The notes under the pieces are model-generated. The model was not told the DNA's origin and did not search any database. It worked only from the letters and a program-made list of their open reading frames with translations. The position numbers and the translations under genes are program-made. Below are positions 22,699-61,236 of a stretch of 64,000 nt of DNA, piece by piece. Positions within the stretch are counted from its first letter, which is position 1, and every line of letters starts with the position of its first letter. This DNA comes from Siphonodentalium dalli (lineage: Eukaryota > Mollusca > Scaphopoda > Gadilida > Siphonodentaliidae), in assembly GCA_032622095.1 (NCBI GenBank), contig CP136063.1, forward strand, positions 14,177,814 to 14,241,813, read 5' to 3'.

Positions 22699-22736
22699 GA
22701 TTAGTACCATATATAGTCATTACTATCTTAATACAT

Positions 22737-22907
22737 AGAGGATCTCACATGAGTTACTATTGTATACGGAATTTATCAACCGAGTTCACTAAATTTGATT
22801 TGAGCCGAGGTTTACCGAGGCTCAAATAGAATTTAGTGGACGAGGTTGATAAATTACGTATAAAATAGGACGAGTGTGAGATACTTTTTATCACATGATC
22901 AAATAAA
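22737..22907. repeat. Foldback family P, copy 1 (Helentron intron 19)
   Basis: GGATCTCACATGAG.. ATTTATCAACCGAGTTCACT and a GAGCCGAGG/CCTCGGCTC-type centre, then the inverse arm ending TTTTTATCACATGATCA. The copies at 41.83 and 47.57 kb are closely related. Confidence 0.75.
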
Positions 22908-25684: not shown

Positions 25685-26097
25685 TTTTTTGTTTCTAATA
25701 TCAATCCTTTGCTTTGTATATGTTCACCATCGTTTATTGTTTATTTTTGTTATCATGTTACATGTTTTATCATATTTTATTGAAATAAAGAATAAAAATT
25801 AGCAAAAACCCAAACGTCCAGGTGCCGAACGCAAACCCCAGGATCATTGGTTGGTATTTATGTCTTCCCACATATTTTTAAACACAAAACCACATATTTT
25901 AAAAAATCATGTCACAAAGAGGTTCTGGCGCTTTAAAGTGCCAAACATTTATATGGGCTTTGTTTGTTAAATTTACTAATAATTCGCATAACTCACAATC
26001 AAGTAATTTTTGTCATTTCCTTTTTGATAAAGCAAATAACAGGTGATTTATTTAGTGATTTATTTAGGCTACTAAATTTCTATCTAAATGATCTTAC

Positions 26098-27191
26098 CTT
26101 TGCACCAACAGATATCTTGAGAATGCTCCACAACCCACCACTTTCAGACAGCTTTTCAGGACGGTCGGTAATGTTGAGGAGACTGGTTTCGATATCTTTG
26201 GATCGGTCATATGCATGCATCTCATGGATGTGATTTTTCAGAGAAGCAAGTTGTTCCTGATTATGCCTGTCCACTTCAGAGTTCTCACAGAAGACATGCA
26301 ACGCATCCTTCGGATAATCGGTCCGCTGTCTCTGCTTCAGAATGTTGGCATCGTCATCTGTAATTCCACCTTCTCTCACACGATCCAGCAGCTCTGCAAA
26401 GGTCTTGTCATCCTTCTGTCTCATGATCTCGTCCAGTTCTAGCATTTGAAACAGACTCCATCCATTTCCACTGGCGTTGATATTTGCCATATTGTTAGTC
26501 ATTGGCATGAAGATGTGCCGTTGCTTTACAGGTGCAAGCTGGAACAAATCGCCCACAGCTAGCACTGAAACACCACCAAATGGAGCAGAGGATCCCTTGA
26601 TTTCACTCAAGCGTCGATTGACATGGTAGAATGTATCTGTTCCAGCCATGGAGACCTCGTCAAGAATGAGCAGATGGAGATTTCGTAGCATATTGTCTAA
26701 CCGGGCCAGCTTCGCGGAGCAAGTGATAAATAGTCTGTGCCAAATTTCTGTGGAGTTAAACAGAAAGCGGAGTGAATGGTCATCCCACTAACATTGTAGG
26801 CGGCGACACCAGTGGGTGCAGTGATCATCGATGTCGCATCTCCAGGATCGATACCAGGAACCAGCTTCAGCAATCGCAGTGTGTCGTGTTGAATGAGCTT
26901 GATGACATGACTCTTGCCAACCCCTCCAGATCCACTAAGGAATGTGTAGTATGGTTTCGGTTGATGTCCTTGCTTCAGGCGAATAACGGTCTCCTTACAC
27001 CATTTTCTGTGGACTTCTAACATCATTCTCTGCTTGCTGTTTAGAGTACGCATCATTTGGCAGTAATGCTGATGAGACAGGACATGCTTCTCTGTCTCTA
27101 TGGTGTATAAGAGAGATGAGCGTGCTTGTCTGTCTCCTGCAATCAGTCTGGCGTTGTCATCCAAGTCCTCCTGCTCAATATTCCGTTCAAC
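26098..27191 (-). CDS. Helentron exon 18: PIF1-type helicase core with a frameshift
   Basis: Encodes the SF1B helicase N-terminal half: Walker A GSGGVGKSH (about 26,905-26,935), TAPTGVAAYNVSGMTIHSAF, Walker B ILDEVSMAG (about 26,643-26,668) and GDLFQLAPV. Between motif Ia and Walker B the frame shifts near 26,711-26,720; a one-base loss restores both phase and the KLARLDNMLRNLHLLILDE reading. Acceptor CTATTCCAG, donor AAAG|GTAAG. Confidence 0.93.
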
Positions 27192-27650
27192 CTGGAATAG
27201 CCAGATATAAAAAACAATTATTCAGCATGTTCCGGTTCTGGAATATATCAATCACAAAAAATCTGTTGCATCAATTAATTCATGGGCTTCCACACATGCA
27301 TATATGTAACTATATGCATGAATAATCCATCAGATTTACTTCAGTATACAGTATACTTTTCCACTGTTTCAATATAGGGATGTATATCATGGTATGATGT
27401 TCATGATATGTCCTTATTTAGGTTGTTAACTTGTTAGTATGCGTATGTTTTATGTTTGTTTTAACGATAAATGTAATGCTCTGTACGTAATACCTCTTGG
27501 GGGCCCATATGTTAATTGGTCAATAAATTTCTATTCTATTTATCATAAAAATTCTTATATGCAGATATATATATGACCAAATGACAAAAATGAGCAATGA
27601 CCAGTTTTGAATTAATTGTTACATCAACTTAATGTAATAGTTGTTCATAC

Positions 27651-28142: not shown

Positions 28143-28405
28143 CTAAAAAAATAATAAAATCAGAATAATTTATTTTACAATTCATGTGAATTTATGCCTC
28201 GCGGATGAGGGGTGTATCGACTTAAGTCACTTCCGGTTAATTTTGCAGTGTCCTGTTTGCCATATATATATATAACATCCATAAATTATTCATATATTAT
28301 ATCTTTTTTATATATAGTTATCATGTAGAGTATGTTCTAAAGTTTAATATTTAAAAGTATAAACTATGAACACATAAAATTTGTTAAATAAAAGTATGAT
28401 ATAAT

Positions 28406-28980
28406 TAGGAGATAAACATACCCTGTTTTGTACATTCTGGGATTCGAGCATGAAAACAGTTCACAAACTGTTTTCATGCTCGAATCCCAGAATGTACAAC
28501 GAAAGAGGGTACGTTTATCTCCATTGTAATTCAATCTAGCAAGGAATTTGCAAAAAAAACTGTACAAAAAGTATCATTTAGTCATTTTCATGACACGAAT
28601 CGAGACTTTCATTTCGCTGTTGTAACCGTGCACAAATCATTGGGTTTGTTCATTGCGTTACTCGGAACACTGCTCCGTAACCATTTCCTGTGGGGCGGTT
28701 TGACTCGTTTCGCTACTCCGTTCTGCGCCGATCAAATTGTACCGTGCCACATTCAGATTTGATGCACGCTGAAGCGGCCGATGAACGGTATCTATACTAG
28801 TATAGACAACAATGCGCGGGTGTGCTCGTTTCGCTACTCGTTCTGCGCCGATGAAATTTGACCGTGCTACATTCAGATTTGATGCACGCTGAAGCGGCCG
28901 ATGTCGGTGAATCGAAAACGAAAGTTAGCCGCTCTCGGTCAATCAGAATGCTTGACAAATACTCAATTGAATTACAATAG
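28406..28980. repeat. Foldback family H, copy 1 (Helentron intron 16)
   Basis: Opens with a hairpin (AGGAGATAAACATACC .. GAAAACAGTTCACAAACTG .. GGGTACGTTTATCTCC). A body follows between TTGTAATTCAATCTAGC and TCAATTGAATTACAAT, which are inverted ends. The body has a direct repeat (ACATTCAGATTTGATGCACG twice). Other copies are at 41.0, 43.4, 44.9 and 46.7 kb. Confidence 0.8.
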
Positions 28981-29100: not shown

Positions 29101-29951
29101 GAGGTAATAAGGGGAGGGCTGGGACCCTATAGAGGTAATAAGGGGAGGTAATAAGGGGAGGGCTGGGACCATATAGAGGTAATAAGGGGAGGGCTGGGAC
29201 CATATAGAGGTAATAAGGGGAGGGCTGGGACCATATAGAGGTAATAAGGGGAGGGCTGGGACCCTATAGAGGTAATAAGGGGAGGTAATAAGGGGAGGGG
29301 TGGGACCCTATAGAGGTAATAAGGAGTGTAATAAGGGGAGGGCTTGGACCATATAGAGGTAATAAGGGGAGGGCTGGGACCATATAGAGGTAATAAGGGG
29401 AGGGCTGGGACCATATAGAGGTAATAAGGGGAGGGCTGGGACCCTATAGAGGTAATAAGGGGAGGGCTTGGACCCTATAGAGGTAATATGGGGTGTAATA
29501 AGGGGAGGGCTGGGACCCTATAGAGGTAATAAGGGGAGGGCTGGGACCCTATAGAGGTAATAAGGGGAGGTAATAAGGGGAGGGCTGGGACCCTATAGAG
29601 GAAATAAGGGGTGTAATAAGGGGAGGGCTGGGACCATATATAGGTAATAAGCTGAGGGCTGGGACCCTATAGAGGTAATAAGGGGAGGGCTGGGACCCTA
29701 TAGAGGTAATAAGGGGAGGGCTGGGACCATATAGAGGTAATAAGGGGAGGGCTGGGACCATATATAGGTAATACGCTGAGGGCTGGGACCCTATAGAGGT
29801 AATAAGGGGAGGGCTGGGACCCTATAGAGGTAATAAGGGGAGGGATGGGACCATATAGAGGTAATAAGGGGAGGGCTGGGACCCTATAGAGGTAATAAGG
29901 GGTGTAATAAGGGGAGGGCTGGGACCCTATAGAGGTAATAAGGGGAGGGCG
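29101..29951. repeat. 31-bp minisatellite (Helentron intron 16)
   Basis: About 27 direct copies of TAATAAGGGGAGGGCTGGGA plus CCCTATAGAGG, with point variants (CCATATAGAGG) and inserted half units (GAGGTAATAAGGGG). The plus strand is G-rich with runs GGGG-A-GGG-CT-GGG. Open frames here are repeat-derived. Confidence 0.95.
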
Positions 29952-30206: not shown

Positions 30207-30642
30207 CTGAAATTGAATGTATAATTGTTCTTTAAATAATGGACATAATGCTTAACTGCTAACTTTTAATTTGGTGATACGTTAGTATTAACAAAACATT
30301 TATTCAAATAGAATAAATTTGCAAGCGTGTGTCTCGGACATGAGTATTTCAAAGGACTAAGACTAAAACTTATATAGACATAACGTATTACAGTCTGTAT
30401 TTATTACACATCCCATACTTCTTGGCATTCATTGGTTGAGTTGAATATAGTTCCTAATAAATAGTTCCAGCTTGTATTTCACACATGTTGAATACAAAAT
30501 ATTTTATTCGATGCCTGAATTTAATTGAATAAGTGAGATTCTTATGCAACGGATGCATAATAAATGCGTTTTATATATGTGCATTTCCGAAAACATATCC
30601 TTGTCTGTTATAATGGTCTAAATAGTGATTGACTATGTTTAC

Positions 30643-31349
30643 CTGTATGATGCCTCTTGTGCTGAAACCTCCCTTTTATTTAAGAAGGTGGTCTTGATAT
30701 TCTGGAGCTGTTTCTTCATCTCCATTCCTCTGGACTCTATGGAAGTTTTTAGAAGTTCCCCCATTTCCTTTTCCGACTTCATCATGTATGATGCTACGTA
30801 CATCACACAGGCATAGGCGTCCGTGATGAACTGGATGTCCATGTTAGCCCTCCACGCACGGAGAATGTCTGGATTGTAATTATTTATCCATTGTTCGCAA
30901 GGTTTTCTTTTCAGTACGACAGTGTGACCACGTTTTGATGTCCCAACTGCATTCACATAGTCATCCATGTTGACCCCGGCTGTTTGTAGAACATCTTCCA
31001 CGGATAACTCTTCAGTAACCTGCAGTGTAGAGATTGAATCGTTGACCTTCTTCAGTATGTTCTGCGCCCTGGTTACATCCTCTGGAGATTTAGGATCTGC
31101 GAAAAGAGTGGAATTGCTAGCAGGTTTTGGGAAGCTGAAGCGACATCCTTTGTTCTTCTTGCAGGCAGCAGAATGAACATGCGTTTGAAGCTTCTTCACC
31201 AGCTCACGGAGTTCGGGGTCAGATTCCGGCGGCAACTGACAAGAGACCATGCTGTTGATGAATGCCACAATGGTTTCTCTGTCTTCTCTTCCAAGTTTCG
31301 GGGCATCCTTCGTCCAGATGACAGTATGAGCATGAGGAGAACCTCTGGC
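30643..31349 (-). CDS. Helentron exon 15: HUH Rep nuclease
   Basis: Starts [12 protein letters not shown], the HUH metal-binding motif (two His around 31,325-31,340). Further on it has [15 protein letters not shown] at about 30,778-30,805, the two-tyrosine catalytic motif YxxxYxxK of Helitron Rep. These residues nick DNA and form the covalent 5' link. The exon ends EASY plus two bases at AG|GTAAAC, matching the conserved 'EA.YRLL' junction with exon 16. No lesion is seen in this exon. Confidence 0.95.
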
Positions 31350-32185
31350 CTGCAAAAATCACAAAAAAGTGTTGTTTATTTCTTCACAATGAACAGTGCA
31401 ACATGATTATGCCAGAAAGCAACATTAAACCCTTTCTACACCATAACCAGCAGAAAAAATAATTAGAACGAAACAGAGATTTAGCCAGTAATTGAAAACT
31501 GGTCCGCCGTCGTAATGGCGACAGTTATACCAGTATCATATCATATGGTACAGAAATACCATCAGGGTGAAAGTATCAGTACTATAGTATGTGTATGTTT
31601 ACTTAATATTGCCTCTCCATAAAGGATTATTTATCACACTAAATGTCCTGAGTGACATTCATCCACTAATCAGTCAGACACTATACAGCCCTCATAATTG
31701 GCTACAGCAATCAGCAATGCCGAAGCCATTTGCTGAAGCAAACTATCGCCATATTAGTGGTTGCCGTAGCATTCGCGAAGCCAAACAATTTGAATTATGA
31801 GGGCTGACTATATAATATACATAACATTAAATATTGGCAAAAAAAATGTTTTTTTAATTTTGGTGGTCCAAAGCCCTGGTAACTGGTAACAGGCCTTCCA
31901 AATGACATTCGGATGGCCCTCTGGCTAACCCTATGGAATGAAATATACTTAAATTTCATCTATATTTGTTGTTTAAACTCTGATGAAAATAAGTTGTACC
32001 ATATTGAATTGCCTTTCATAAAATGGTTGATGAAAATATTTTAGAATATGCTTCACAATTACAATGAAATTATTTTTGAAAGCTGAATACTGTCACTTCT
32101 AGTTCGAATTGACCATAAACATATATGTTCATTTATGGCTCACACTCAGTTGGCAAGGAATTAGAATATGGTAAATTATATTTAC

Positions 32186-33649
32186 CTGAAATTCAATTCG
32201 AACAACAATCTCAAGCACCTCTGACAGCGGACCCAATTTGCTCTTGATGATCGTTTTCATGAATAGCTCAAGTCTGTGCTGAAAATGGCGAGCAGCAGTA
32301 ATTGGGTTTTTGCGAAGCCAAGCACTTCTCTGCTCAAAGTCCATTTGAAGAATGGCTTCTTCGGTAAGCTCCACCCCATGCTGCTTAGCAATGATCTGGA
32401 TGACGTCTGGCCATTGCAGATCAGCGGCAGAGAGGGTTAAGAATACTGATGGTATATCCTTCTGTCGGAGATAGGCCAAGAGGTCATATAGAGTTCCTGC
32501 CCAGAAAACTGGTGATCCCCGTATATTCTTCAGGAACTTGTATGCCTTGTCACTGCGCATCAGCTTCTGCAGATTTCCTGGTTGCCTGACGAAACCCGCA
32601 TTTATCTGTGCCCCGGGATTTGTTCGACCGCGTGTCTGTCTCAGCATGATGTTGGCGCTATCGGCAACTTGCTTGCTCTCAATGTTGTATTGCGACGCCA
32701 ACAAGTACTCAATATCCTGCGCAAACCGAGGATCAACATTGAGAAGTCGCTGATTGAAATAACGTCTATGGGTTATCCTGGTAGGTCGATCAGCTGTAAA
32801 CCCACCTGTTCCCTCTGGATAGTGGTTGGGATAGGCGAGTTCCTCAAAGTGATCCTCCCGGAAGATGTCTTCTGGTTTTTCACCCTCACCAGGAGCTAAT
32901 GTGTACACATTCCCTTCATGGGTTTCTGGTTGAAGGCAGGAGTCATACTGCAGGCCCCTTAGACCAGTGTCGACTACATCATCATCAACATCCATTCCAT
33001 CTGCTTATGTACTGGTGCTGGCTGGATAGTGGTTGGGATAGGCGAGTTCCTCAAAGTGATCCTCCCGGAAGATGTCTTCTGGTTTTTCACCCTCACCAGG
33101 AGCTAATGTGTACACATTCCCTTCATGGGTTTCTGGTTGAAGGCAGGAGTCATGCTGCAGGCCCCTTAGACCAGTGTCGACTACATCATCATCAACGTCC
33201 ATTCCATCTGCTTCTGTACTGGTACTGGCAGTACGATTGGAAGCTGCAGGCTGTTCAGGTTGGAGAAATGTGTAGTGGTACTGGCCTATCAACCCCAGCA
33301 TCACCGTTGTTCTGTATATTCCATTTTTAGGTATTATCGATGTCGGTTCTGCATTCGGAATTCCTGTTGTAATGATGAGAATCTTAATGCGTAACATCTC
33401 ACTCAGGCCTTGTACAGCAACATGATCCCCCCAGTCATTTTGGCGAACACCAGAAAGGAAATCGTTCCAGGAAGATGCACACACAAAGTCCATGTATAGC
33501 TGGCTGTGGACTTCCAGGAAAGTAGCCAATTTCTCGCGCATGTCTCTGATGGACGATATGCTCTGGATGACTTCTTTAGATGAAGAATGTTCCAAGAAGG
33601 CGATGACGGCAGAGTATAGGCAGTGTCCATCTCTTGGAACGTTGACAAC
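32186..33649 (-). CDS. Helentron exon 14: OTU protease and Helitron N-terminal domain, with in-frame stop
   Basis: A 488-codon exon. It opens with the OTU catalytic-cysteine box DGHCLYSA (about 33,606-33,632), then NDWGDHVAVQGLSEML (about 33,400) and the histidine box LIGQYHYTFL (about 33,265), so all parts of an OTU cysteine protease are present. An acidic linker containing a 69-residue exact-period duplication follows. Then comes the Helitron N-terminal domain with FEELAYPNHYPEGTGGF and SVFLTLSAADLQWPDVIQII. Codon 33,005-33,007 is TAA where the sister duplicate has GAA. The exon ends EFQ|, phase 0, joining ARGSPHAH of the next exon. Confidence 0.92.
32817..33230 (-). repeat. 207-bp in-frame tandem duplication inside exon 14
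   Basis: Copies at 32,817-33,023 and 33,024-33,230 differ at about five bases. Each encodes 69 residues from the acidic linker through FREDHFEELAYPNHYP. The period is an exact multiple of three, so the frame is kept. The stop codon lies only in the lower-coordinate copy. Confidence 0.95.
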
Positions 33650-34559: not shown

Positions 34560-35945
34560 GTAAAAATGAGCAGTAAAGGATTTAGTCACACACAGTGTAA
34601 AATCCAAGATGGCTGCTGGCGGCCATGTTTTTTAGCCGAATGACCCCAAAATGACTCGTTCCAATCTACATGTTTTTGTTAACATCCATCACAAATTTTA
34701 TGATGATCAGACTAAAGGTACGACCTGTAGCCTGTGCTAAAGGATTTAGTCATGCAAAGAGTAAAATCCAAGATGGCTGCTGGCGGCCATGTTTTTTGGC
34801 CGATTGACCCCAAAATTAATCGTTGCCATCTACATGTCAATATTAACATCCATGACCAATTTCATGGTGATCAGACGAATAGTACGACCTGTAGCCCATG
34901 CTAATGCATTGAATTTTGAAATCAAAGATGGCCACTGGCAGCCATGTTTTTTGCCCGAATGACCCCAAAATGACTCGTTCCCATCTACATTCCAATTTCA
35001 ACAGCCATGACAAATTGTATGATGATCCAACCAAAGGTACGACCTGTAGCCCGTGCTAAAAGATTTAGTCATGCAAAGAGTAAAATTCAAGATGGCTGAT
35101 GGCGGCCATGTTTTTTGGCCGAATAACCCCAAAAAAACTCGTTCACATCTAAATTCCAATTTCAACAGCCATGACAAATTTCATGATCATCAGACTAAAG
35201 ATACGACCTGTAGCCTGTGCTGAAGGATTTAGTCATACCAAGAGTAAAATCCAAGATGGCTGCTGGCGGCCATGTTTTTGGGCCGAATGACCCCAAAATG
35301 ACTCGTTCCCATCTACATGTCAATATTAACATCAATGACAAATTTCATGATGATCAGATAAACAGTACGACCTGTGGCCCATGCTAATGGATTGAATTTT
35401 CAAATCCAAGATGGCCACTGACGGCCATGTTTTTTTTCCGAATGACCCCCAAAATGACTTGTTCCCATCTACATTCCATTTTCAACAGTCATGACAAATT
35501 TTATGATGATCAGACTAAAGGTACGACCTTTGGCCGTGCTAAATGATTTAGTCATGCAAAGAGTAAAATCCAAGATGGCTGCTGGCGGCCATGTTTTTGT
35601 GCCGAATGAACCCAAAATTACTTGTTCCCATCTACATGTCAATATTAACATCCATGACAAATTTCATGACGATCAGACGAACAGTACAGCCTGTATCCCA
35701 TGCTAATGGATTGAATTTTGAAATCTAAGATGGCCACTGGCATCCATGTTTTTTTCCGAATGACCCCAAAATGAATCATTCCGGTCTAAATGTTGATGTC
35801 AACAGCTATGACAAATTTCATAATGATCCGATCAAAGGTACGACCTGTAGCCTGTATTGTTGACGCATCACGCACACACGTACACATGCACGCACGGACG
35901 ACAAAGCCATGGCAATAGCTCAAACTTTACAAAGTTGAGCTAATA
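34560..35945 (+). repeat. Tandem AAGATGGC array with LINE/SINE-like tail (Helentron intron 13)
   Basis: About eight subunits of 150-180 bp, each with AAAATCCAAGATGGCTGCTG, GCGGCCATGTTTTTTGGCCG, ATGACCCCAAAATGACTCGT, GACAAATTTCATGATGATCA and GGTACGACCTGTAGCC. The last is followed by GACGCATCACGCACACACG and AAAGTTGAGCTAATAA. It is an amplified form of the 1.9-2.3 kb repeat. Confidence 0.85.
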
Positions 35946-38577: not shown

Positions 38578-39108
38578 CTAAATAACCAAATAAGATAAAT
38601 ACGTCAAAGCAAGCAACATAATATTATATGTATCACATAATACTAAATAAGCACTTCCTTATAAATTAATTAAGTAGAATTTCATTGATTGCAATAGTTT
38701 TCGTAAATAATGGGTGTTAAGGCTCAAAATAAGCTATGACATTTGCAGAAGGTTCCTAGAGGGTGAATTTAGTGATACTACCCTGCATAGCAGGTTAGCA
38801 TCACCAAATTAACCCTCTGGGGACCTCATTCTGTTCAGACATTGAACACAATAATCAGTGTTCATGGTTGTGATAGCATTTAGTGAGACCTTATTCTGAG
38901 TACAGAAATGTCAGACATTTTGAGGCCTGAAAATTGGGTGTTTAAGTATTAAAATATGTACTGAATTAAGACTTTTAATAGTGTGAAGGGTAAAGAACTC
39001 TAATTGAATGATAACTCCATATATAGAGGATTCATACCTCCAATAAGTTGTGAATCAAATTCATCAAATCAGTTTTATAATGATATCAAAATAGTAAATA
39101 CAACTCAC

Positions 39109-39955
39109 CTTTGATTCACCAGCAAGGGTTGTAGAACATCCCTCGGTCACTGTTGCTGGCTTTGTGTTGTGCGCCCTATCCTCCTTCGGGTCGTACATCA
39201 ATGCTTCCCAGACGTCCGGATCTGCCTCCTTCCATTTATCCTGCCAATCAATGTTGAGCGTTGTCTGACGGTATAGGTGGTTGTTTTTCACCAGCCATTT
39301 TAGGGCACTCATCACCTTCTCTGGCCGGATATACTGGTAGATGTAGTGGCCTTTATATACCAGTCGGCGTTTCAGCTTGATGGGCACCACTTGAGATGAG
39401 GAAGGCAGTCGGGGAAGAAGAGAGCAGATTGCCTGCAGTTTAGTTGGGACGTTAACTGCAGGACCAACTATCTTCTTCTGTTTACCTCTGGGAAGCGCAA
39501 TAATTTTCATAAAAGGAATCTTTTGGGATATCAGGAGTTTCTCCAAGGAGTTAAGACCCTTGAGGGTCGGAGGAATCTCTGGGAGACGTAGATTGTTTGC
39601 CGCAGCCTGCGATGGTAACTTTTGTCTTCTGATGGAACACTTGCAGGTACGGCATACCCACTCCTTGTCACCCCTCTTAATTCTATTGATGGCCTCAAAC
39701 ACTGCTGCTGTGGGCTGATGTTCCTTGATGACATTGGAATATTGAACATCTTTAAACTCCACTACAGATGTTCGATACATCAGCCTGTGGCAGCAAGTGC
39801 ATACGTAGGTTGGACCATTGAAAACCTCCTTTCGGAACGCCTGAATGAGGCTGGCCAGGGTTGCCGGTTGTTTTTGGGCCCGATTTCTCCTATTCCTCGT
39901 GACAACACCACTCAGCCTTCTGGCATCGGCCCCCGGCGATAATGCTGCCTGAGAT
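39109..39955 (-). CDS. Helentron exon 10: CxxC pairs and DUF6570-like region
   Basis: An uninterrupted 282-codon exon. It contains two Cys pairs (CTCCHRL near 39,795 and CRTCKCS near 39,645), likely a zinc-binding unit. Then come LNSLEKLLISQKIPFMKI, LPRGKQKKIVGPAVNVP, a run of basic KLKRRL and the RPEKVMSALKWLVKNNHLY segment typical of the DUF6570 region seen in animal Helitrons. Acceptor TTTCAG at 39,956; donor AAAG|GTGAG. The function of DUF6570 is not established. Confidence 0.9.
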
Positions 39956-40042
39956 CTGAAACAGTCAAGAATATAATAATAATTCACCTCACTGCTTCAC
40001 ATAAGGAATAATATTGTGTTGCATGATTTGTAATTTTGATCA

Positions 40043-40677: not shown

Positions 40678-40746
40678 CTTTTATATGTGTCCCTTCTCTG
40701 ACTGAGTTTCTTCGATTTTGTTCCTGGTGTCTCTAACTATCTTGCT
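40678..40746 (-). CDS. Helentron exon 9 (repeat exon C) with in-frame stop
   Basis: A diverged 69-nt relative of exon B (LETPGTKSKKLSQRRDTYK) between GATTCAG and GTAAGG. The codon at 40,737-40,739 is TAG where the sister exons have CAG after AR, an apparent C-to-T nonsense change. It ends phase 2 and joins exon 10 exactly. Confidence 0.8.
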
Positions 40747-41006
40747 CTGAATCAATTAAGACACATATTTTATTAATAAATATAATATTGATGTCAATAG
40801 GGTCATATTCAAAGTTTGTTCAGAGTACCTGTTTCTGGCTGTCGCATTCGAAATCACCCAAAATCCAAATAATACTCATAATATAAATTCCAAAATTAAG
40901 ACTGTTTAAGGTTTCCCTTAATAAATTTATATTGTCATAATTATCCGAAAATAGTACTTGACAACAGAAAATATCATTTGTTTAGTACCGTTATATGTTA
41001 TTGTAA

Positions 41007-41570
41007 ATCAATTGAGTATTTGTCACTAAAAACAAGCATTCTGATTGGTTGAGAGCGGCTAACATTAGTTTTTGATTCACCGACATCTGCCACTTCAGCG
41101 TGCATCAAATCTGAAAGTAGCACGGTAACATTTCATCATCGCAGAACAGAGTAGCGAAACGAGCACACCGGCGCGTTGTTGTCTATAGATACCGTCCATT
41201 GGCCGCTTCAGCGTGCATGAAATCTGAATGTAGCACGGTCAAATTTCATCGGCGTAGAACGGAGTAGCGAAACTAGCCAACCCGCCCCACAGGAAATTGT
41301 TACGGAGCAGTGTTCCGAGTAACGCACGGTGACAACGGCAAAATGAAAGTCTCGATTTGTGTCAAGAAAATGACTAAATGATGCTTTTTATACAGTTTTT
41401 TGTTTGCAAATTTCTTACTAGATTGAATTACAATGGAGATAAACGTACGTACCCTGTTGAGTTGTACATTCTGGAATTCGAGCATGATTCGTCGGCAAGC
41501 CGGCTCGTTCTCAAACTGTTTTCATGCTCAAATCCCAGAATGTATAACATGGTACGTTTATCTCCTAAAT
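41007..41570. repeat. Foldback family H, inverted copy (Helentron intron 8)
   Basis: Same elements as 28.4 kb in reverse order, including GCGTGCATCAAATCTGAA twice-related blocks and a closing hairpin bounded by GGAGATAAACGTAC and GTACGTTTATCTCC. Confidence 0.8.
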
Positions 41571-41829
41571 ATTATAGAGTTCTATAGTTCTTAAAGGCCA
41601 CAACCTCTTCATGTACAGATGTCTCTGATCGTCGCGCACTGATTAAAATATAAAGATACATATTTTATTTATAAATGCCATAATATTGATGTCACTAGTT
41701 GATATCACGAGATTTTTGGGGGGTACCTGTTTTTGGCTGCCACCATCCAGAATCCAAATAATTACACAACTGCATGATATAATATAAATTCCAAAATTAA
41801 AATATAAGGCCAATAAAGGTTCATATATA

Positions 41830-42185
41830 TATAAACATATATATATAGAGGATCTCACATGAGCTTCTATTTTATACGGAATTTATCAACCGAGTTTACT
41901 AAATTCGATTTGAGCCGAGGTTTACCGAGGCTCAAATAGAATTTAGTGGACAAGGTTGATAAATTCCGTATAAAATAGAATGAGCTTGAGATACTTTTTA
42001 TCACATGATCATATAATCGCTAAAATTTTATCGAAAAGAACACCAATTAACTGCAGCCAGCGAACATTGTCCCAAAGAGCAGCGTGACGTCATTGCACGC
42101 GACGATATTACACGTGTCTATTACGCTCGAATATTACATCGGAAAATAGTGCTAATCATGTGATAAATATATATATTTATCTACC
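41830..42185. repeat. Foldback family P, copy 2 (Helentron intron 8)
   Basis: TATATAGAGGATCTCACATG at the left, AATCATGTGATAAATATATA at the right (imperfect inverse). The central GAGCCGAGG / CCTCGGCTC-type palindrome is preserved as TGAGCCGAGGTTTACCGAGG. Confidence 0.75.
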
Positions 42186-42816
42186 GAATACATAAAAACG
42201 CTACTGGAAACTCTGTAATACAGCAAAAGTTACTAGTACAAATATCGACCTTGTATTGTTCCTATAGTAACAAAATATCGACCATATGACGATGCACACA
42301 CAAGGTTAACGTTCAATAATACGAACTATTTCATTAATTTGTTGTTTACAAACTGAGAAATGCTTCGCTCTGGAAAATAAGCAAAACGTGCTTACGTACT
42401 GGTTGGGACATTATTTCTTCTACAATTTGAGATAAATAACACGATTTTTATAATGAATTATAGCGCACTATATCTTTGCACTCATAATATTTGTTCAATG
42501 TCACCAGGCGTAATGGAACTTCCGGTGACCGTGTTACGTGAAATCCGCGGGGACCTGTTTATCGCTGAACTCGACATTATTTCTTCTACAATTTGAGATA
42601 AATAATGTTCACGACTATTTCTTCTACAATTTGAGATAAAATAACATGACTTTTATAGTGAATTATGTTGATACGTTCGGTAGATAAATGTGTTACATAC
42701 AAATGGTTGCGATATCGAATGTGACATCGCAACTCGGAGAAATCTCCTCATTTTTGTGGTAGTTTTTGAGGTGAATATCTTAAATAATTTTGGAAAGATA
42801 TATTTAAATTTCTTAC

Positions 42817-42885
42817 CCATTTTTCTTTTGCCTTTTCTGGGCCAGACTTCTGGAGTGTGTCCCAGGTGTCTCTGACTGTCGTGCA
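42817..42885 (-). CDS. Helentron exon 8 (repeat exon B3)
   Basis: Third copy of exon B, 1,343 bp from B2, starting ARQSETPGTHSRS. Donor GG|GTAAGAAAT is intact. Confidence 0.8.
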
Positions 42886-43225
42886 CTGAATAAAATAAGA
42901 TAGATGTTTTATTTATAAATACTGCAGCAGCCGCACTTCTTCGTCAACTTGGACTCTACTAGTATACCTGTGCATGTTCGGCTGACAGTGGTTATAAAAC
43001 TTGTAATAACATACTATTCACCTATAAATAGTTATCAAATAATTTATATTACACCATATGATAACACTCAGCAATGTGTAATAACAGTTTGACAATAAAA
43101 AAAATGAAGCAATATATGTAACAAATATTAAAATAACCTCATGTATAGTGATAATGATCAAGTTTTTACTTTGTAAGAACTATAAGATTGGCATCCTCAG
43201 CAACTATAATTATAATTTTTCTTAC

Positions 43226-43294
43226 ATTCTATATTTGTCTCTTCTCAGCGCTAGCTGGGTATTTCTTGTGTTTGGCGTCAATGACTGTCGAGCT
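43226..43294 (-). CDS. Helentron exon 7 (repeat exon A3)
   Basis: Third copy of exon A, 1,343 bp from A2, with the same acceptor and donor. Encodes ARQSLTP..LRRDKYR. Confidence 0.8.
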
Positions 43295-43399
43295 CTGTGC
43301 AAACAAATGGAAAAAAACATAAAATCCAATATTATAAGATTATATATTTGAGAAAAAGAATACCAGAGAAATCAATGTTTATGAAACATACTTCCCAAA

Positions 43400-43793
43400 T
43401 TATGACACGAATCGAGACTTTCATTTCGACGTTGTCACCGTGCACAAATCATTGGGTGTGTCCATTGCGTTACTCGGAACACTGCTCCGTAACCATTTCC
43501 TGTGGGGCGGGTTGGCTCGTTTCGCTACTCCGTTCTGCGCCGATCAAATTGTACCGTACCACATTCAGATTTGATCAACACTGAAGCGGCCGATGAACGG
43601 TATCTATAGACAACAACGCGCGGGTGTGCTCGTTTCGCTATTCGTTCTGCGCCGATTACATTTGACCGTGCTACATTCAGATTTGATGCACGCTGAAGCG
43701 GCCGATGTCGGTGAATCGAAAACGAAAGTTAGCCGCTCCCAGCCAATCAGAATGCTTGATTTTAGTGACAAATACTCAATTGAATTACAATGA
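43400..43793. repeat. Foldback family H, truncated copy
   Basis: Body segment only (GACACGAATCGAGACTTTCA to CAATTGAATTACAATG), without the opening hairpin, between exon A3 and exon B2. Confidence 0.75.
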
Positions 43794-44159
43794 ATTATAG
43801 CGCACTATATCTTTGCGCTCATACCGGTAATATTTGTTCAATGTCGCCAGGCGTAATGGAACTTCCGGTGACCGTGTTACGTGAAATCCGCGGGGACCTG
43901 TTTATCGCTGAACTCGACATTATTTCTTCTACAATTTGAGATAAATAATGTTCACGACTATTTCTTCTACAATTTGAGATAAAATAACATGACTTTTATA
44001 GTGAATTATGTTGATAGGTTCGGTAGATAAATGTGTTACATACAAATGGTTGCGATATCGAATGTGACATCGCAACTCGGAGAAATCTCCTCATTTTTGT
44101 GGTAGTTTTTGAGGTGAATATCTTAAATAATTTTGGAAAGATATATTTAAATTTGTTAC

Positions 44160-44228
44160 CCATTTTTCTTTTGCCTTATCTGGGCCAGACTGTTGGAGTG
44201 TGTCCCAGGTGTCTCTGACTGTCGTGCA
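44160..44228 (-). CDS. Helentron exon 6 (repeat exon B2)
   Basis: Copy of exon B1. The donor here reads GG|GTAACAAAT rather than GTAAG, a weaker splice site that may cause skipping. Confidence 0.75.
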
Positions 44229-44568
44229 CTGAATAAAATAAGGTAGATGTTTTATTTATAAATACTGCAGCAGCAGCACTTCTTCGTCAACTTGGACTCT
44301 AATAGTATACCTGTGCATGTTCGGCTGACAGTGGCTATAAAACTTGTAATAACATACTATTCACCTATAAATAGTTATAATATAATTTATATTACACCAT
44401 ATGATAACACTCAGCAATGTGTAATAACAGTTTGACAATAAAAAAAATGAAGCAATATATGTAACAAATATTAAAATAACCTCATGTATAGTGATAATGA
44501 TCAAGTTTTTACTTTGTAAGAACTATAAGATTGGCATCCTCAGCAACTATAATTATAATTTTTCTTAC

Positions 44569-44637
44569 ATTCTATATTTGTCTCTTCTCAGCGCTAGCTG
44601 GGCATTTCTTGTGTTTGGCGTCAATGACTGTCGAGCT
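44569..44637 (-). CDS. Helentron exon 5 (repeat exon A2)
   Basis: Nearly identical to exon A1, 1,801 bp away, with the same splice signals. One visible coding difference among the copies is at the NTRN(T/A)QLA position. Confidence 0.8.
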
Positions 44638-44903
44638 CTGTGCAAACAAATGGAAAAAAACATAAAATCCAATATTATAAGATTATATATTTGAGAAAAA
44701 GAATACCAGAGAAATCAATGTTTATGAAACATACTTCCCAAATTATTAAAATTAAAATGGGGGGTGGGGTGCGAAAGGGGTTGTGGGTTACCCGATTTGA
44801 ACAATTTAAAATTTGGGCATAGCCTCCGCCCACCATTTGCACTTTTGGTTAAATATATGTTTTTGGACCGATCACATATTTGGATGGTAGAACAATCCTA
44901 TTT

Positions 44904-45155
44904 AGGAGATAAACATACCCTGTTGAGTTGTACATTCTGGGATTCGAGCATGAAAACAGTTTGTGAACGAGCCAGCTTGCTCGTTCACAAACTGTTTTCA
45001 TGCTCGAATCCCAGAATATACAACGAAACAGGGTACGTTTATCTCCATTGTAATTCAATCTAGCAAGGAATTTGCTAAAAAACTGTATAAAAAGTATCAT
45101 TTAGTCATTTTCATGACACGAATCGAGACTTTCATTTCGCTGTTGTCACCGTGGA
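44904..45155. repeat. Foldback family H, 5' part fused to family P
   Basis: The opening hairpin (AGGAGATAAACATACCCTG .. GTACGTTTATCTCC) and first body bases are intact. At GTTGTCACCGTG the sequence jumps to GGACGAGGTTGATAAATTCC of family P. Confidence 0.8.
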
Positions 45156-46020
45156 CGAGGTTGATAAATTCCGTATAAAATAGAACGAGTTTGAGATACT
45201 TTTTATCACATGATCATATAATCGCTAAAATTTTATCGAAAAGAACAACAATTAACTGCAGCCAGCGAACATTGTCCCAAAGAGCAGCGTGACGTCATTG
45301 CACGCGACGATATTACACGTGTCTATTACGCTTGAATATTACATCGGAAAATAGTGCTAATCATGTGATAAATATATATATTTATCTACCGAATACATAA
45401 AAACGCTACTGGAAACTCCGTAATACAGCAAAAGTTACTAGTACAAATATCGATCTTGTATTGTTCCTAGTAACAAAATATCGACCATGTGACGATGCAC
45501 ACACAATGTTAACGCGCAATAATACGAACTATTTCATTAATTTGTTGTTTACAAACTGAGAAATGCCTCGCTCTGGAAAATAAGCAAAACGTGCTTACGT
45601 ACTGGTTGGGACATTATTTCTTCTACAATTTGAGATAAATAACACGATTTTTATAATGAATTATAGCGCACTATATCTTTGCGCTCATAATATTTGTTCA
45701 ATGTCGCCAGGCGTAATGGAACCTCCGGTGACCCGTGTTACGTGAAATCCGCGGGGACCTGTTTATCGCTGAACTCGACATTATTTCTTCTACAATTTGA
45801 GATAAATAATGTTCACGACTATTTCTTCAACAATTTGAGATAAAATAACATGACTTTTATAGTGAATTATGTTGATACGTTCGGTAGATAAATGTGTTAC
45901 ATACAAATGGTTGCGATATCGAATGTGACATCGCAACTCGGAGAAATCTCCTCATTTTTGTGGTAGTTTTTGAGGTGAATATCTTAAATAATTTTGGAAA
46001 GATATATTTAAATTTCTTAC

Positions 46021-46089
46021 CCATTTTTCTTTTGCCTTATCTGGGCCAGACTGTTGGAGTGTGTCCCAGGTGTCTCTGACTGTCGTGCA
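46021..46089 (-). CDS. Helentron exon 4 (repeat exon B1)
   Basis: A 69-nt phase-2 exon between TTTATTCAG and GTAAGAAAT. It encodes 23 residues starting ARQSETPGTHS and ending RQKKNG, the partner of exon A1. Confidence 0.8.
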
Positions 46090-46369
46090 CTGAATAAAAT
46101 AGGGTAGATGTTTTATTTATAAATACTGCAGCAGCAGCACTTCATCGTCAACTTGGACTCTACTAGTATACCTGTGCATGTTCGGCTGACAGTGGTTATA
46201 AGACTTGCAATAACATACTATTCACCTATAAATAGTTATAATATAATATGAAGCAATATATGTAACAAATATTAAAATAACCTCATGTATAGTGATAATG
46301 ATCAAGTTTTTACTTTGTAAGAACTATAAGATTGGCATCCTCAGCAACCATAATTATAATCTTTCTTAC

Positions 46370-46438
46370 ATTCTATATTTGTCTCTTCTCAGCGCTAGCT
46401 GGGCATTTCTTGTGTTTGGCGTCAATGACTGTCGAGCT
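46370..46438 (-). CDS. Helentron exon 3 (repeat exon A1)
   Basis: A 69-nt exon between TTTGCACAG and GTAAGAAAG. It encodes 23 residues starting ARQSLTP and ending LRRDKYR. Both splice phases are 2, so it can be duplicated or lost without a frameshift. Confidence 0.8.
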
Positions 46439-46704
46439 CTGTGCAAACAAATGGAAAAAAACATAAAATCCAATATTATAAGATTATATATTTGAGAAAA
46501 AGAATACCAGAGAAATCAATGTTTATGAAACATACTTCCCAAATTATTAAAATTAAAATGGGGGGTGGGGTGCGAAAGGGGTTGTGGGTTACCCGATTTG
46601 AACAATTTAAAATTTGGGCATAGCCTCCGCCCACCATTTGCACTTTTGGTTAAATATATGTTATTGGACCGATCACATATTTGGATGGTAGAACAATCCT
46701 ATTT

Positions 46705-47310
46705 AGGAGATAAACATACCCTGTTGAGTTGTACAATCTGGGATTCGAGCATGAAAACAGTTTGTGAACGAGCCGGCTTGCTGGCGAGTTCACAAACTGT
46801 GTTCATGCTCGAATCCCAGAATGTACAACGAAACAGGGTACGTTTATCTCCATTGTAATTCAATCTAGCAAGGAATTTGCTAAAAAACTGTATAAAAAGT
46901 TTCATTTAGTCATTTTCATGACACGAATCGAGACTTTCATTTCGCTGTTGTCACCGTGCACAAATCATTGGGTTTGTTCATTGCATTACTCGGAACACTG
47001 CTCCGTAACCATTTCCTGTGGGGCGGGTTGGCTCGTTTCGCTACTCCGTTCTGCGCCGATGAAATTGTACCGTGCCACATTCAGATTTGATGCACGCTGA
47101 AACGACCGATGAACGGTATCTATAGACAACAACGCGCGGGTGTGCTCGTTTCGCTACTCGTTCTGCGCCGATAAAATTTGACCGTGCTACATTCAGATTT
47201 GATGCACGCTGAAGCGGCCGATGTCCGTGAATCGAAAACGAAAGTTAGCCGCTCTCGACCAATCAGAATGCTTGTTTTTAGTGACAAATACTCAATTGAA
47301 TTACAATGTG
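46705..47310. repeat. Foldback family H, full copy (Helentron intron 2)
   Basis: Complete unit from AGGAGATAAACATACCCTG to CTCAATTGAATTACAATG, closest in structure to the 28.4 kb copy. Confidence 0.8.
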
Positions 47311-47448: not shown

Positions 47449-47516
47449 TTTCTACGATATTCTGCTCTCCTACATGTAGCTAGTTCTAGTTGTTTGCGTT
47501 CTGCGGCAGTAGGAAC
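47449..47516 (-). CDS. Helentron exon 2: first N-terminal repeat
   Basis: Bounded by TTTGTAG| and |GTAAGTAC. It encodes VPTAAERKQLELATCRRAEY and RR, the same pattern as the later repeats (small/Thr-Pro start, basic RR.YR end). It begins in phase 0 and ends with two bases of a codon, feeding the phase-2 repeat exons. Confidence 0.8.
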
Positions 47517-47559
47517 CTACAAATCAGATTACAGGTCACAATTAATGGAACCTATTATA

Positions 47560-47785
47560 TATATATTTATCACATGATTAGCACTATGTAATATTATATT
47601 ATATGATCATGTGATAAAAAGTATCTCAAACTCGTTCTATTTTATACGTAATTTATCAACCTCGTCCACTAATTTCTATTTGAGCCTTGGTAAACCTCGG
47701 CTCAAATCGAATTTAGTGAACTTGGTTGATAAATTCTGTATAAAATAGAAACTCATGTGAGATCCTCTATATATAGTATATTTAA
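47560..47785. repeat. Foldback family P, inverted copy (Helentron intron 1)
   Basis: TATATATTTATCACATGATT at the left and CTCATGTGAGATCCTCTATA at the right, the inverse of 41.83-42.18 kb with an internal deletion. Confidence 0.75.
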
Positions 47786-55781: not shown

Positions 55782-58492
55782 ATAACTAAATAACGGGTAT
55801 GCTATGACAGTATGAGGGTGATAATGTCTGAGATGAGCACATTAATATCCACGATCGCTGTCAAAAAGGCTAAATGTGCTCCTTTGACAGATTATCACTC
55901 TCCTAGCAAAAATACCCGTTATTTAGTTAATATTAAATAAATAACGGGTATGCTATGAGGGTGATAATGTCTGAGATGAGCACATTGACATCCATGATGG
56001 CTGTCAAAAAGGCTTATTGTGTTCCTTTGACGAATTATCATTCTCCTAGCATGCCCGTTATTTAGTTAATATTTACTAAATAACGTGTATGCAAGGAGGG
56101 TGATAATGTCTGAGATGAGCACATTAACATCAATGATGGCTGTCAAAAAGGCTAAATGTGCTCCTTTGACGAATAATCATTCTCCTAGCATACCCGTTAT
56201 TTAGTTAATATTTACTAAATAACGGGTATGCTAGGAGGGTGATAATGTCTGAGATGAGCACATTAACATCCATGATGGCTGTCAAAAAGGCTAAATGTGC
56301 TCCTTTGACGAATTACCATTCTCCTAGCATACCCGTTATTTAGTTAATATTTACTAAATAACGGGTATGCTATAAGGGTGATAATGTCTGAGATGAGCAC
56401 ATTAACATCCATGATGGCTGTCAAAAAGGCTAAATGTGCTCCTTTGACGAATAATCATTCTCCTAGCATACCCGTTATTTAGTTAATATTTACAAAATAA
56501 CGGGTATTCTATCAGGGTGATCATGCCTGAGATGAGGACATTAACATCCATGATGGCTGTCAAAAAGGCTAAATGTGCTCCTTTGAGACATTATCAGTCT
56601 CCTAGCATACCCGTTATTTAGTTAATATTAAATAAATAACGGGTATGCTATGAGGGTGATCATGCCTGAGATGAGGACATTAACATCCATGATGGCTGTC
56701 AAAAAGGCTAAATGTGCTCCTTTGAGACATTATCAGTCTCCTAGCATACCCGTTATTTAGTTAATATTAAATAAATAACGGGTATGCTATGAGGGTGATA
56801 ATGTCTGAGATGAGCACATTAACATCCATGATGGCTGTCAAAAAGGCTTATTGTGCTCATTTGACGAAATATCATTCTCCTAGCATACCCGTTATTTAGT
56901 TAATATTTACTAAATAACGGGTATGCTAGGAGGGTGATAATGTCTGAGATGAGCACATTAACATCCATGATGGCTGTCAAAAAGGCTTATTGTGCTCATT
57001 TGACGAAATATCATTCTCCTAGCATACCCGTTATTTAGTTAATATTTACTAAATAACGGGTATGCTAGGAGGGTGATAATGTCTGAGATGAGCACATTAA
57101 CATCCATGATGGCTGTCAAAAAGGCTAAATGTGCTCCTTTGACGAATAATCATTCTCCTAGCATACCCGTTATTTAGTTAATATTTACTAAATAACGGGT
57201 ATGCTATGAGGGTGATAATGTCTGAGATGAGCACATTAACATCCATGATGGCTGTCAAAAAGGCTTATTGTGCTCATTTGACGAAATATCATTCTCCTAG
57301 CATACCCGTTATTTAGTTAATATGTACTAAATAACGGGTATGCTATCAGGGTGATAATGTCTGAGATGAGCACATTAACATCCATGATGGCTGTCAAAAA
57401 GGCTAAATGTGCTCCTTTGACGTATTATCATTATCCTAGCATACCCGTTATTTTGTTATTATTTACTAAATAACGTGTATGCTAGGATGGTGATAATATC
57501 TGAGATGAGCATATTAACATCCATGATGGCTGTCAAAAAGGCTTATTGTGCTCCTTTGACGAATTATCACTCTCCTAGTATACCCGTTATTTAGTTAATA
57601 TTAACTAAATAACGGGTATGCTAGGAGGGTGATAATGATTGAGATGAGCACATTAACATCCATGATGGCTGTCAAAATGGCGTATTGTGCTCCTTTGACT
57701 GAGATGAGCACATTAACATCCATGATGGCAGTCAAAAAGGCTAAATATGCTCCTTTGACGAATTATCACTCTCCTAGCATACCCGTTATTTAGTTAATAT
57801 TAACTAAATAACGGGTATGCTAGGAGGGTGATCATTTCTGAGATGAGCACATTAACATCCATGATGGCTGTCAAACAGGCTTATTTTGCTCCTTTGACGA
57901 ATTATCATTCTCCTAGCATACCCGTTATTTAGTTAATATTTACTAAATAACGGGTATGCTAGGAGGGTGATAATGTCTGAGATGAGCACATTAACATCCA
58001 TGATGGCTGTCAAAAAGGCTAAATGTGCTCCTTTGACGAATAATCATTCTCCTAGCATACCCGTTATTTAGTTAATATTTACTAAATAACGGGTATGCTA
58101 TAAGGGTGATAATGTCTGAGATGAGCACATTACCATCCATGATGGCTGTCAAAAAGGCTAAATGTGCTCATTTGACGAATTGTCATTCTCCTAGCATACC
58201 CGGTATTTAGTTAATATTTACTAAATAACGGGTATGCTAGGAGTGTGATAATGTCTGAGATGAGCACATTAACATCCACGATGGCTGTCAAAAAGGCTAA
58301 ATGTGCTCCTTTGACTAATAATCATTCTCCTATCATACCCGTTATTTAGTTAATATTTACTAAATAACGGGTATGCTATGAGGGTGATAATGTCTGAGAT
58401 GAGCACATTAACATCCATGATGGCTGTCAAAAAGGCTAAATGTGCTCCTTTGACGAATTATCATTATCCTAGCATACCCGTTATTTAGTTTA
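55782..58492. repeat. 139-bp hairpin-module tandem array, about 19 units
   Basis: Each unit reads AAATAACGGGTATGCTAGGA, GGGTGATAATGTCTGAGATG, AGCACATTAACATCCATGAT, GGCTGTCAAAAAGGC, TGCTCCTTTGACGAAT and then the inverse TCCTAGCATACCCGTTATTT. Every unit can fold on itself and every unit junction (TAACTAAATAACGGG and mirror) is also palindromic. Variation is by point change, with one partial unit near 57,700. No unit-spanning coding frame is conserved. Confidence 0.95.
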
Positions 58493-58496
58493 TATT

Positions 58497-60027: not shown

Positions 60028-60116
60028 CTTCCAACACACCGAGGCAGTGTTTACATGAATCAGTTAGAGAACAACACTGCCGTTGAATCCAGGGGCTGTT
60101 CTACGATATTGCCAAT

Positions 60117-61236
60117 GTAACAATGGGACTGAACTCTCGGAATAATACAGAATAATAGTGCAACAATGGGACTGAACTCTCGGAATAATGCAGAATAATA
60201 GTACAACAATGGGACTGAACTCTCGGAATAATGCAGACCAATAGGGTAACAATCAGACTGAACTCTCGGAATAATGCAAAATAATAGTGTAACAATGGGA
60301 CTGAACTCTCGGAATAATACAGAATAATAGTGTAACAATGGGACTGAACTCTCGGAATAATACAGAATAATAGTGTAACAATGGGACTGCACTATCGGAA
60401 TAATGCAGAATAATAGTGTAACAATGGGACTGAACTCTCGTAATAATGCAGAATAATAGTGTAACAATGGGACTGCACTCTCGGAATAATATAGAATAAT
60501 ATTGTAACAATGGGACTGAACTCTCGGAATAATGCAGAATAATAGTGTAACCATGGGTGTGAACTCTCGGAATAAAGCAGAATAATAGTGTAACAATGGG
60601 ACTGAACTCTCGTAATAATACAGAAAAATAGTGTAACAATGGGACTGAACTCTCGTAATAATACATAATAATAGTGTAACAATGGGACTGAACTCTCGTA
60701 ATAATGCAGAATAATAGTGTAACAATGGGACTGAACTCTCGTAATGATACAGAATAATAGTGTAACAATGTGACTGAACTGTCTGAATAATACCGAATAA
60801 TAGTTTAACAATGGGACGAAACTCTCGGAATAATGCAGAATAATAGTGTAGCGATGGGACTGAACTCTCGGAATAATGCGTAATAATAGTGTAACAATGG
60901 GACGTAACTCTCGTAATAATACAGAACAATGGTGTAACAATGGGACTGAACTCGTAATAATACAGAATAATAGTGTAACAATGGGACTGAACTCTCGTAA
61001 TAATACAGAAAAATAGTGTAACAATGGGACAAAACTCTCGGAATAATGCAGAATAATAGTGTAGCGATGGGACGGAACTCTCGTAATAATACAGAATAAT
61101 AGTGTAACACTGGGACTGAAATATCGTAATAATACAGAACAATAGTATAACAATGGGACTGAACTCTCGGAATAATGGAGAATAATAGTGTAACAATGGG
61201 ACTGAACTCTCAGAATAATGCAGAATAATAGTGTAG
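60117..61236. repeat. 43-bp tandem array, about 26 units
   Basis: Unit TGTAACAATGGGACTGAACT + CTCGGAATAATGCAGAATAATAG with scattered variants (TCGTAATAATACAG). On the minus strand the unit has no stop in any frame, so a 378-codon open frame and several overlapping ones run through it. These are period artefacts, not a gene. Confidence 0.95.

Follow-up and report, generated by a model that had tools for sequence, protein, structure and literature searches.

Repeated exon duplication in the basic 23-residue repeat array of a decaying Helentron-type gene of Siphonodentalium dalli

Symmetric exons, Helentrons, and 23-residue repeats

Tandem duplication of symmetric exons is known from nebulin and titin, in which phase symmetry allows exons to be copied without a frameshift. 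At the locus described here, by contrast, the duplicated exons belong to a transposase gene, and nested non-autonomous elements are found at the breakpoints. In the literature, judged mainly from the titles listed, no repeat-exon array in a Helitron was found reported.

The host element resembles the Helentrons, with which it has in common, as far as the available portion of PMC4067079 describes them, a Rep, a PIF1-like helicase, an endonuclease, and an OTU-like protease. According to the same portion, the Rep/Helicase frames of mite and oomycete Helentrons are intronless, whereas the present element encodes its N-terminal array in separate exons of one repeat each. A further point of comparison is Helraiser, which neither binds ssDNA nor cleaves once its N-terminal 489 residues are removed (PMC4778049, in excerpt). 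Residues 1-89 of this protein, taken from the sequence of PDB 7lcc_A, contain a 42-residue repeat (autocorrelation 2.79, against 1.53 for the best of 500 shuffles). Like the present array, the Helraiser N-terminus has basic short repeats ahead of a Cys-rich stretch, and its period of 42 equals 23 + 19; the similarity of the two does not go beyond composition, 299 of 1000 shuffles being as good.

The repeat length itself recalls the STPR, a tandem 23-residue DNA-binding repeat with a pI of 11.4, in which a Glu4-Arg9 pair is reported to be important for the rigid form taken on DNA (PMC4821344, in excerpt). The STPR occurs in FMBP-1 and ZNF821 and binds DNA in the known cases (excerpts of PMC4821344 and PMC13362889), and the STPR of FMBP-1 is like the present array in consisting of tandem basic repeats of exactly 23 residues.

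The repeat exons and the gene that carries them

The window, that is, the whole stretch of DNA analysed, comprises 64,000 nt of S. dalli (assembly GCA_032622095.1, contig CP136063.1, positions 14,177,814-14,241,813, forward). When coordinates, phases, and splice sites are read on its minus strand, seven exons of exactly 69 nt are found, each in phase 2 at both ends, and exons A and B are each present in three near-identical copies, as a first-pass annotation of this DNA had proposed. The array exons, together with a remnant, are the following:

47449-47516, minus strand: exon C, 68 nt, phase 0 to 2, VPTAAERKQLELATCRRAEYRRK; AG acceptor, GTAAGT donor, in register with A3
46370-46438, minus strand: exon A3, 69 nt, phase 2/2
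46021-46089, minus strand: exon B3, 69 nt, phase 2/2
44569-44637, minus strand: exon A2, 69 nt, phase 2/2, identical to A3
44160-44228, minus strand: exon B2, 69 nt, phase 2/2, same sequence as B3; its donor is GTAAC, not GTAAG
43226-43294, minus strand: exon A1, differing from A2/A3 at 1/69 nt (one residue, Ala/Thr)
42817-42885, minus strand: exon B1, differing from B2/B3 at 3/69 nt (two residues)
41616-41678, minus strand: R, remnant of a B-type exon in which only the acceptor side and the 5' part are preserved
40678-40746, minus strand: exon D, 69 nt, phase 2/2, related to B and older, with an in-frame TAG as its third full codon
39064-39955, minus strand: exon E, last, diverged 23-residue unit, two CxxC pairs, and DUF6570 (PF20209, E 1.8e-20); 39955 marks the acceptor, 39064 the end of the open frame and not a mapped donor

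All seven 69-nt exons have an AG acceptor, and all except B2 a GTAAG donor. The in-frame TAG of the seventh, exon D, is a caveat that the first-pass annotation did not carry, and exon C is an eighth array exon beyond the seven counted there. Exon C is not symmetric, because it is 68 nt long and runs from phase 0 to phase 2; it likely forms the start of the basic array, with no canonical 23-residue unit. Among the open segments upstream of C, judged by eye, none was convincing as a start exon.

In the predicted spliced product, eight [T/S]P motifs fall at residues 29, 52, 75, 98, 121, 144, 167, and 190, always 23 apart, and the array leads on to the exon with DUF6570 in a Helentron-type gene. 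Most of the 23-residue units have an exon of their own, and the periodicity is no chance pattern. The product stays in frame, in agreement with the earlier proposal that each round of A plus B adds 46 residues without a frameshift. A six-frame protein profile scan of the window recovered the eight units from which the profile had been built, at 34-43 bits, and no further repeat unit above 3.6 bits, while DNA profiles run across the window found only the known exons and R.

The array has a pI of 12.0. No Pfam family reached its cut-off with it: the best was GAGA factor (E 0.0012, 19.4 bits against a cut-off of 20.2, over three stretches), which, together with the equally sub-threshold IML1 and Mhr1, was judged a match of basic composition and set aside. 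Against the PDB, one de novo protein (E 2.1) was rejected, and there was no other match.

The other Helentron parts, identified mainly with Pfam, stand in order on one strand:

33005-33649, minus strand: OTU protease-like part (PF02338, E 3.4e-8), ending at an in-frame TAA that falls in copy two of a tandemly duplicated 207-bp segment
32129-33004, minus strand: Helitron_like_N part (PF14214, E 1.9e-19)
30639-31358, minus strand: Rep (HUH) part, QARGSPHAH motif read; Pfam REP_ORF2-G2P below cut-off
26080-27221, minus strand: PIF1-like helicase part in two overlapping frames; PF05970 matches one at E 3.3e-15 and the other, slightly short of the cut-off, at E 1.5e-5
19179-19868, minus strand: endonuclease part (PF03372, E 9.9e-9)

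These parts identify the host mobile element as Helentron-type, which is how it had first been annotated. The HUH Rep motif and the PIF1-like helicase are both present, as is the OTU-like protease described for some Helentrons, and the PF03372 match shares strand and order with Rep and helicase, with which it would form one putative gene. An endonuclease is the feature separating Helentrons from canonical Helitrons. No RPA was detected among the 9 frames scanned against Pfam. In the PDB, the Rep part gave a weak match to Helraiser (E 0.26), with an alignment covering QARGSPHAH; the best match of the Helitron_like_N piece had E 0.49, and the DUF6570 exon had none up to E 1. Relatives were sought with the DUF6570 exon and the Rep and helicase pieces, the array itself not being a query. 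The three queries gave 1, 15, and 18 pattern matches, respectively, in viral contigs, and the DUF6570 exon gave 13 in genome contigs, with no relative confirmed in either set. Rfam and tRNA scans of the window gave no match.

Older and recent rounds of duplication

Judged by alignment, exons A, B, and D are related at the DNA level, and B and D share their flanking intron. The two are 71% identical over 166 nt, intron on both sides included, and this homology through the introns scores 66.5, compared to 19 for the best of 300 shuffles; the intron after D is likewise homologous to the intron before A (93 against 32.5, best of 300 shuffles). R was found by DNA profile (E 1.5e-9) and is alignable with B and D. 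The B/D profile also matches the three A exons (E 2.7e-5 to 5.5e-5), extending 9-10 nt past the splice sites on each side, while the pairwise DNA comparison of A1 with B1 scores 23.0, barely over the best of 300 shuffles (21.0). At the protein level, the similarities A/B, A/D, and B/D were each matched by 0 of 20,000 shuffles, D/E by 7, B/E by 210, and A/E by 1002 of 20,000. Furthermore, with the stop codon omitted, B and D differ in the reading frame at 8 of 14.3 synonymous and 15 of 48.7 nonsynonymous sites, an excess not seen in the two other frames. As in tandem exon duplication, the copies take in the exon, its splice sites, and flanking intron. The relationship of A, B, and D, the intron shared by B and D, and the partial copy R thus indicate that exon duplication was repeated, at clearly different times.

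The most recent round produced three units, U1 to U3, with a core that is 98.0-98.6% identical at ungapped sites (U1/U2 14/948, U1/U3 18/888, and U2/U3 12/888 differences, with 1, 2, and 3 indel events, respectively). The span first given for it, 42455-46905, starts where one junction has its left breakpoint (in the range 42452-42455), but the full units are wider, extending from about 41946 to 47308. The three copies of the segment are confirmed; they do not, however, form one simple tandem repeat, because breakpoints differ between the two junctions, and one junction coincides with the end of a nested Helentron-like element:

43789-43792, no strand: junction J1 (U1/U2), microhomology of 4 bp, AATG; a nested HINE-like element has its 5' end here, at 43791
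45151-45153, no strand: junction J2 (U2/U3), 3-bp GTG microhomology; nested-element interior against a foldback element, Y
46704-47307, minus strand: nested HINE-like element in U3, with 12-bp subterminal repeats ATTGTAATTCAA and a long palindrome; low end approximate

The meeting of J1 with an element end is suggestive: for four breakpoints and three element ends, the chance that one or more breakpoints lie no further than 2 bp from an end is about 0.024, in a test framed after the result had been seen.

The nested element has five copies or parts in the window and is alike in architecture to the HINEs of the available portion of PMC4067079, having subterminal inverted repeats (12-15 bp in HINE) and a palindrome near the 3' end, which is much longer here. 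Both 12-bp repeats are present in three copies (at 28.4 kb, at 41.0 kb with 1 mismatch, and in U3), and one repeat each in the truncated copies of U1, without the 3' part, and U2, without the 5' part; palindrome arms occur in four of the five. The homologous intron after D is without the element, but with a similarity of only about 74% in the best 126 columns it is too diverged for single bases of the insertion site, T-rich in HINEs, to be assigned. A scan of the window with the nested-element repeat gave 8 matches, all inside nested-element copies, and no ends of the large element, where a Helentron would carry subterminal inverted repeats and a 3' palindrome.

Growth of the array and its meaning

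The locus probably represents the 5' end of a Helentron of autonomous type, now in decay, with a basic 23-residue array that grew by the copying of exon plus intron. The A, B pair was recently triplicated, with 3-4-bp microhomology at junctions that lie in introns full of nested elements, and the phase 2/2 exons kept the frame through copying. The encoded protein would have begun with a basic, probably helical 23-residue array, mostly with one repeat per 69-nt symmetric exon, which preceded the Cys-rich module, DUF6570, and the OTU, Rep, helicase, and endonuclease parts. As with the N-terminus of Helraiser, the array likely binds DNA, and may help the transposase to hold the element ends or AT-rich DNA. 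Template switching during replication, or end joining, may have produced the growth within the introns, with splicing hiding the imprecision of the breakpoints. The order U3, nested-element interior, U2, nested-element 5' end, U1 could reflect one event with two backward template switches. Such an event predicts about equally diverged core copies, as observed. Two observations are not predicted by it if it was recent: between U1 and U3 the element block has diverged more than the core, and the count of sites with a state common to U1 and U3 but different from both other copies is zero.

Whether the enlargement mattered for the protein is a separate matter, and we give only slightly less than an even chance to the view that the triplication was neutral: the older array of A, B, and D would have worked, and the triplication of A and B would have come only after the element had broken, as an accident without consequence for the protein. 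The copy is decaying and looks broken, as shown by the TAG in D, the TAA beyond the OTU region, and the break in the helicase frame; the GTAAC donor of B2 is likewise in keeping with neutrality. Among the recent copies, the exons differ by four nonsynonymous and 0 synonymous changes, so that use of the enlarged array is not supported, and the exons are no more conserved than the introns (U1/U2, 4/138 against 10/810, P 0.13). Between U2 and U3 the exons differ at 0/138 sites and the introns at 12/750, numbers too small to tell whether selection or conversion was at work. On the other hand, four exonic differences are too few to tell relaxed from ordinary evolution, the order of events is undated, and the six recent exons are all still open with their AG acceptors kept. 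Neutrality concerns the consequence only and is compatible with template switching or end joining as the mechanism. The intron-mediated growth proposed at first stands as copying of exon plus intron, with homology crossing the splice sites, but its relevance to a working protein is not supported, in view of the stops, the frame break, and the nonsynonymous differences.

Somewhat less probable, though still a serious candidate, is a history in which, instead of one event with two template switches, two separate tandem duplications took place, after which one unit was lost and gene conversion acted among the units. The two different breakpoint pairs speak for it, and the element block of U1 has a history different from that of the core (U1 against U3, 20/390, entered in the Fisher test as 20/382, compared to 18/888 in the core, P 0.0035). 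However, reasoning from the block order, four units and a later deletion are required, and the core copies are about equally diverged.

We regard as unlikely that the array is a true STPR domain of the FMBP-1 family captured from a host gene. Its 23-residue period, its strongly basic character, and the Glu at position 1 in B and D are in keeping with such a capture, as is the tandem basic nature of the STPR itself, but, by eye, Glu4 is found in 0/8 and Arg9 in 1/8 units, so the Glu4-Arg9 pair is absent. A more speculative extension of growth in the introns, which we consider improbable, is that the array was enlarged by the Helentron's own parasites: nested non-autonomous Helentrons in the introns would supply new cut sites for the transposase, nicking or read-through at a nested 5' end would copy the repeat exons next to it, and the transposase gene would thereby rewrite its own repeat number. 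Finally, false joining of allelic or paralogous copies during assembly is very improbable, for although two haplotypes of a variable species can also show 1-3% divergence, the window has no N, the junctions are clean, with short microhomology, and touch nested elements, the copies differ structurally (element present, truncated, or partly deleted), and the older B, D, and R exons show the same process without near-identity.

What is new here is the repeated exon duplication at different times, the microhomology joins, the decay of the copy, and a likely DNA-binding role. The tandem-repeat nature of a Helitron N-terminus is visible also in the Helraiser chain of PDB 7lcc, and no description of it was found in the available portions of two Helraiser papers. 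If other copies confirm the growth of the array by exon and intron copying, the transposase would have a putative DNA-binding tail that is modular at the level of exons, so that imprecise copying of intron DNA could alter the number of repeats with the frame undamaged. Repeat number could then be compared with activity among the copies of one element.

The transposon gene and its repeat exons

A single long gene of a rolling-circle transposon is represented on the minus strand of the window by the following parts:

19179-19868, minus strand: endonuclease (Pfam)
26080-27221, minus strand: PIF1-like helicase (Pfam; in two frames, one of which falls marginally short of the cut-off)
within 30639-31358, minus strand: HUH Rep motif QARGSPHAH, read in the sequence
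32129-33004, minus strand: Helitron_like_N (Pfam)
33005-33649, minus strand: OTU protease (Pfam)
39064-39996, minus strand: DUF6570 (Pfam)

An endonuclease alongside Rep/helicase is, in the excerpted text of PMC4067079, the mark of Helentrons. The OTU and DUF6570 parts are separated by a 164-bp tandem array of 8 copies (34574-35852); a G-rich tandem array with a 31/62-bp unit lies at 29101-29945, and the 28-30 kb bin has the strongest GC skew among the window's bins (0.283). Elsewhere, 55811-58496 holds about 19 tandem copies of a 139-bp unit with an inverted repeat around AAATAACGGGTAT, and 60116-61235 about 26 tandem copies of a 43-bp unit with a minus-strand open frame of up to 401 codons.

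The repeat exons stand at the 5′ end of the transposon gene, upstream of the domain-coding parts. The first-pass annotation had proposed seven exons of exactly 69 nt with phase 2 at either side, and this is borne out: exon C, of 68 nt and running from phase 0 to phase 2, is followed by A3, B3, A2, B2, A1, B1 and D, and then, in matching phase, by the DUF6570 exon E, which starts at 39955. This predicted gene model rests on splice signals, phase and homology, and the window contains no N. Joined, the exons encode eight [T/S]P motifs spaced by exactly 23 residues, the eighth within E. The likeness of the A, B and D units exceeds all 20,000 shuffles for each pair, and the unit in E is a weaker member, its scores being reached by 7 (with D), 210 (with B) and 1002 (with A) of 20,000. 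When the window was scanned in all six frames with a profile, the eight units were recovered and no further one scored above 3.6 bits; since the profile was derived from these same units, the absence of others is its informative part.

Growth of the array

Three near-identical copies of the A+B segment account for the recent growth:

about 41946-43792: U1
43789-45153: U2
45151-47308: U3

Their shared cores differ at 14/948 (U1/U2), 18/888 (U1/U3) and 12/888 (U2/U3) ungapped sites. Sequence comparison indicates that exon copying is older than this triplication. B and D are 71% alike across 166 nt spanning both splice sites and the intron on either side, a further B-type exon survives at 41616-41678 as a remnant with its acceptor side and 5′ portion, and the intron following D is homologous to that preceding A (score 93, against at most 32.5 in 300 shuffles). 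A B+D DNA profile also matches the three A exons (E 2.7e-5 to 5.5e-5), running 9-10 nt past the splice sites on each side; in plain pairwise comparison, A1 is above shuffles with D (35 versus 25) and hardly so with B1 (23.0 versus 21.0). In our reading, the exons of the array would go back to a single exon-plus-intron unit that was copied on occasions clearly separate in time.

The intron preceding A3 contains a nested element of ~600 bp, which resembles HINE elements, as described in the excerpts of PMC4067079, in having subterminal inverted repeats of 12 bp and, at one of its ends, a long palindrome. Truncated copies occur in U2 and U1, and the intron following D, which has none, is an empty site. 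Further nested copies are:

28402-28978: same element, palindrome and subterminal repeats (12 bp) included; situated between the parts for Rep and helicase
41000-41584: same element, likewise with palindrome and subterminal repeats of 12 bp
41832-42176, 47557-47784 and 22694-23083 (limits approximate): Y, a second family, with a long foldback palindrome

AATG is common to both sides of the U1/U2 junction, and GTG to both sides of the U2/U3 junction. The former coincides with the 5′ end of a nested element (probability ~0.024 by a simple model devised after the fact), and the latter break falls inside Y.

The element part of U1 is equally far from its U3 counterpart (20/390 differences) and from the independent 28-kb copy (18/381), to which U3 is closer (12/381), and no site groups U1 and U3 against the two other copies. 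Divergence in the element part also exceeds that in the core (Fisher P 0.0035). These counts speak against a simple history. One event with two backward template switches would account for the block order; it may instead have taken two events, together with loss or conversion.

Coding state and likely function

The CAG codon of A and B is TAG in exon D. Between the OTU and Helitron_like_N parts, 32815-33229 is an in-frame tandem duplication of 207 bp (69 codons; 98% alike), the second copy of which contains TAA, and the helicase is divided over two overlapping frames. D could be skipped without loss of frame, because the neighbouring exons are also phase 2; this would leave the TAA and the helicase frame split in place. 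Between B and D there are 8 synonymous changes at 14.3 sites and 15 nonsynonymous ones at 48.7; the other two frames lack this pattern. The recent exon copies show four nucleotide differences, none synonymous. On these counts, we read the older array as having been under coding constraint, a reading that does not extend to the triplicated array.

Residues 1-89 of the Helitron transposase Helraiser (sequence checked against 7lcc_A) form a 42-residue tandem repeat, divisible as 23 + 19, of which the consulted portions of the Helraiser papers make no mention; the array has no sequence similarity to it (299/1000 shuffles equally good). Nor do we grant the array membership of STPR, the 23-residue DNA-binding repeat of FMBP-1. 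In Pfam, GAGA factor, which binds DNA, gives a weak match to the array (E 0.0012, short of the cut-off); this fits a basic DNA-binding stretch and proves nothing. The array is strongly basic, with a pI of 12.0 and a charge of ~+41 across 210 residues (stop omitted from the computation), and its mode of action is probably that of a basic repeat array that binds DNA.
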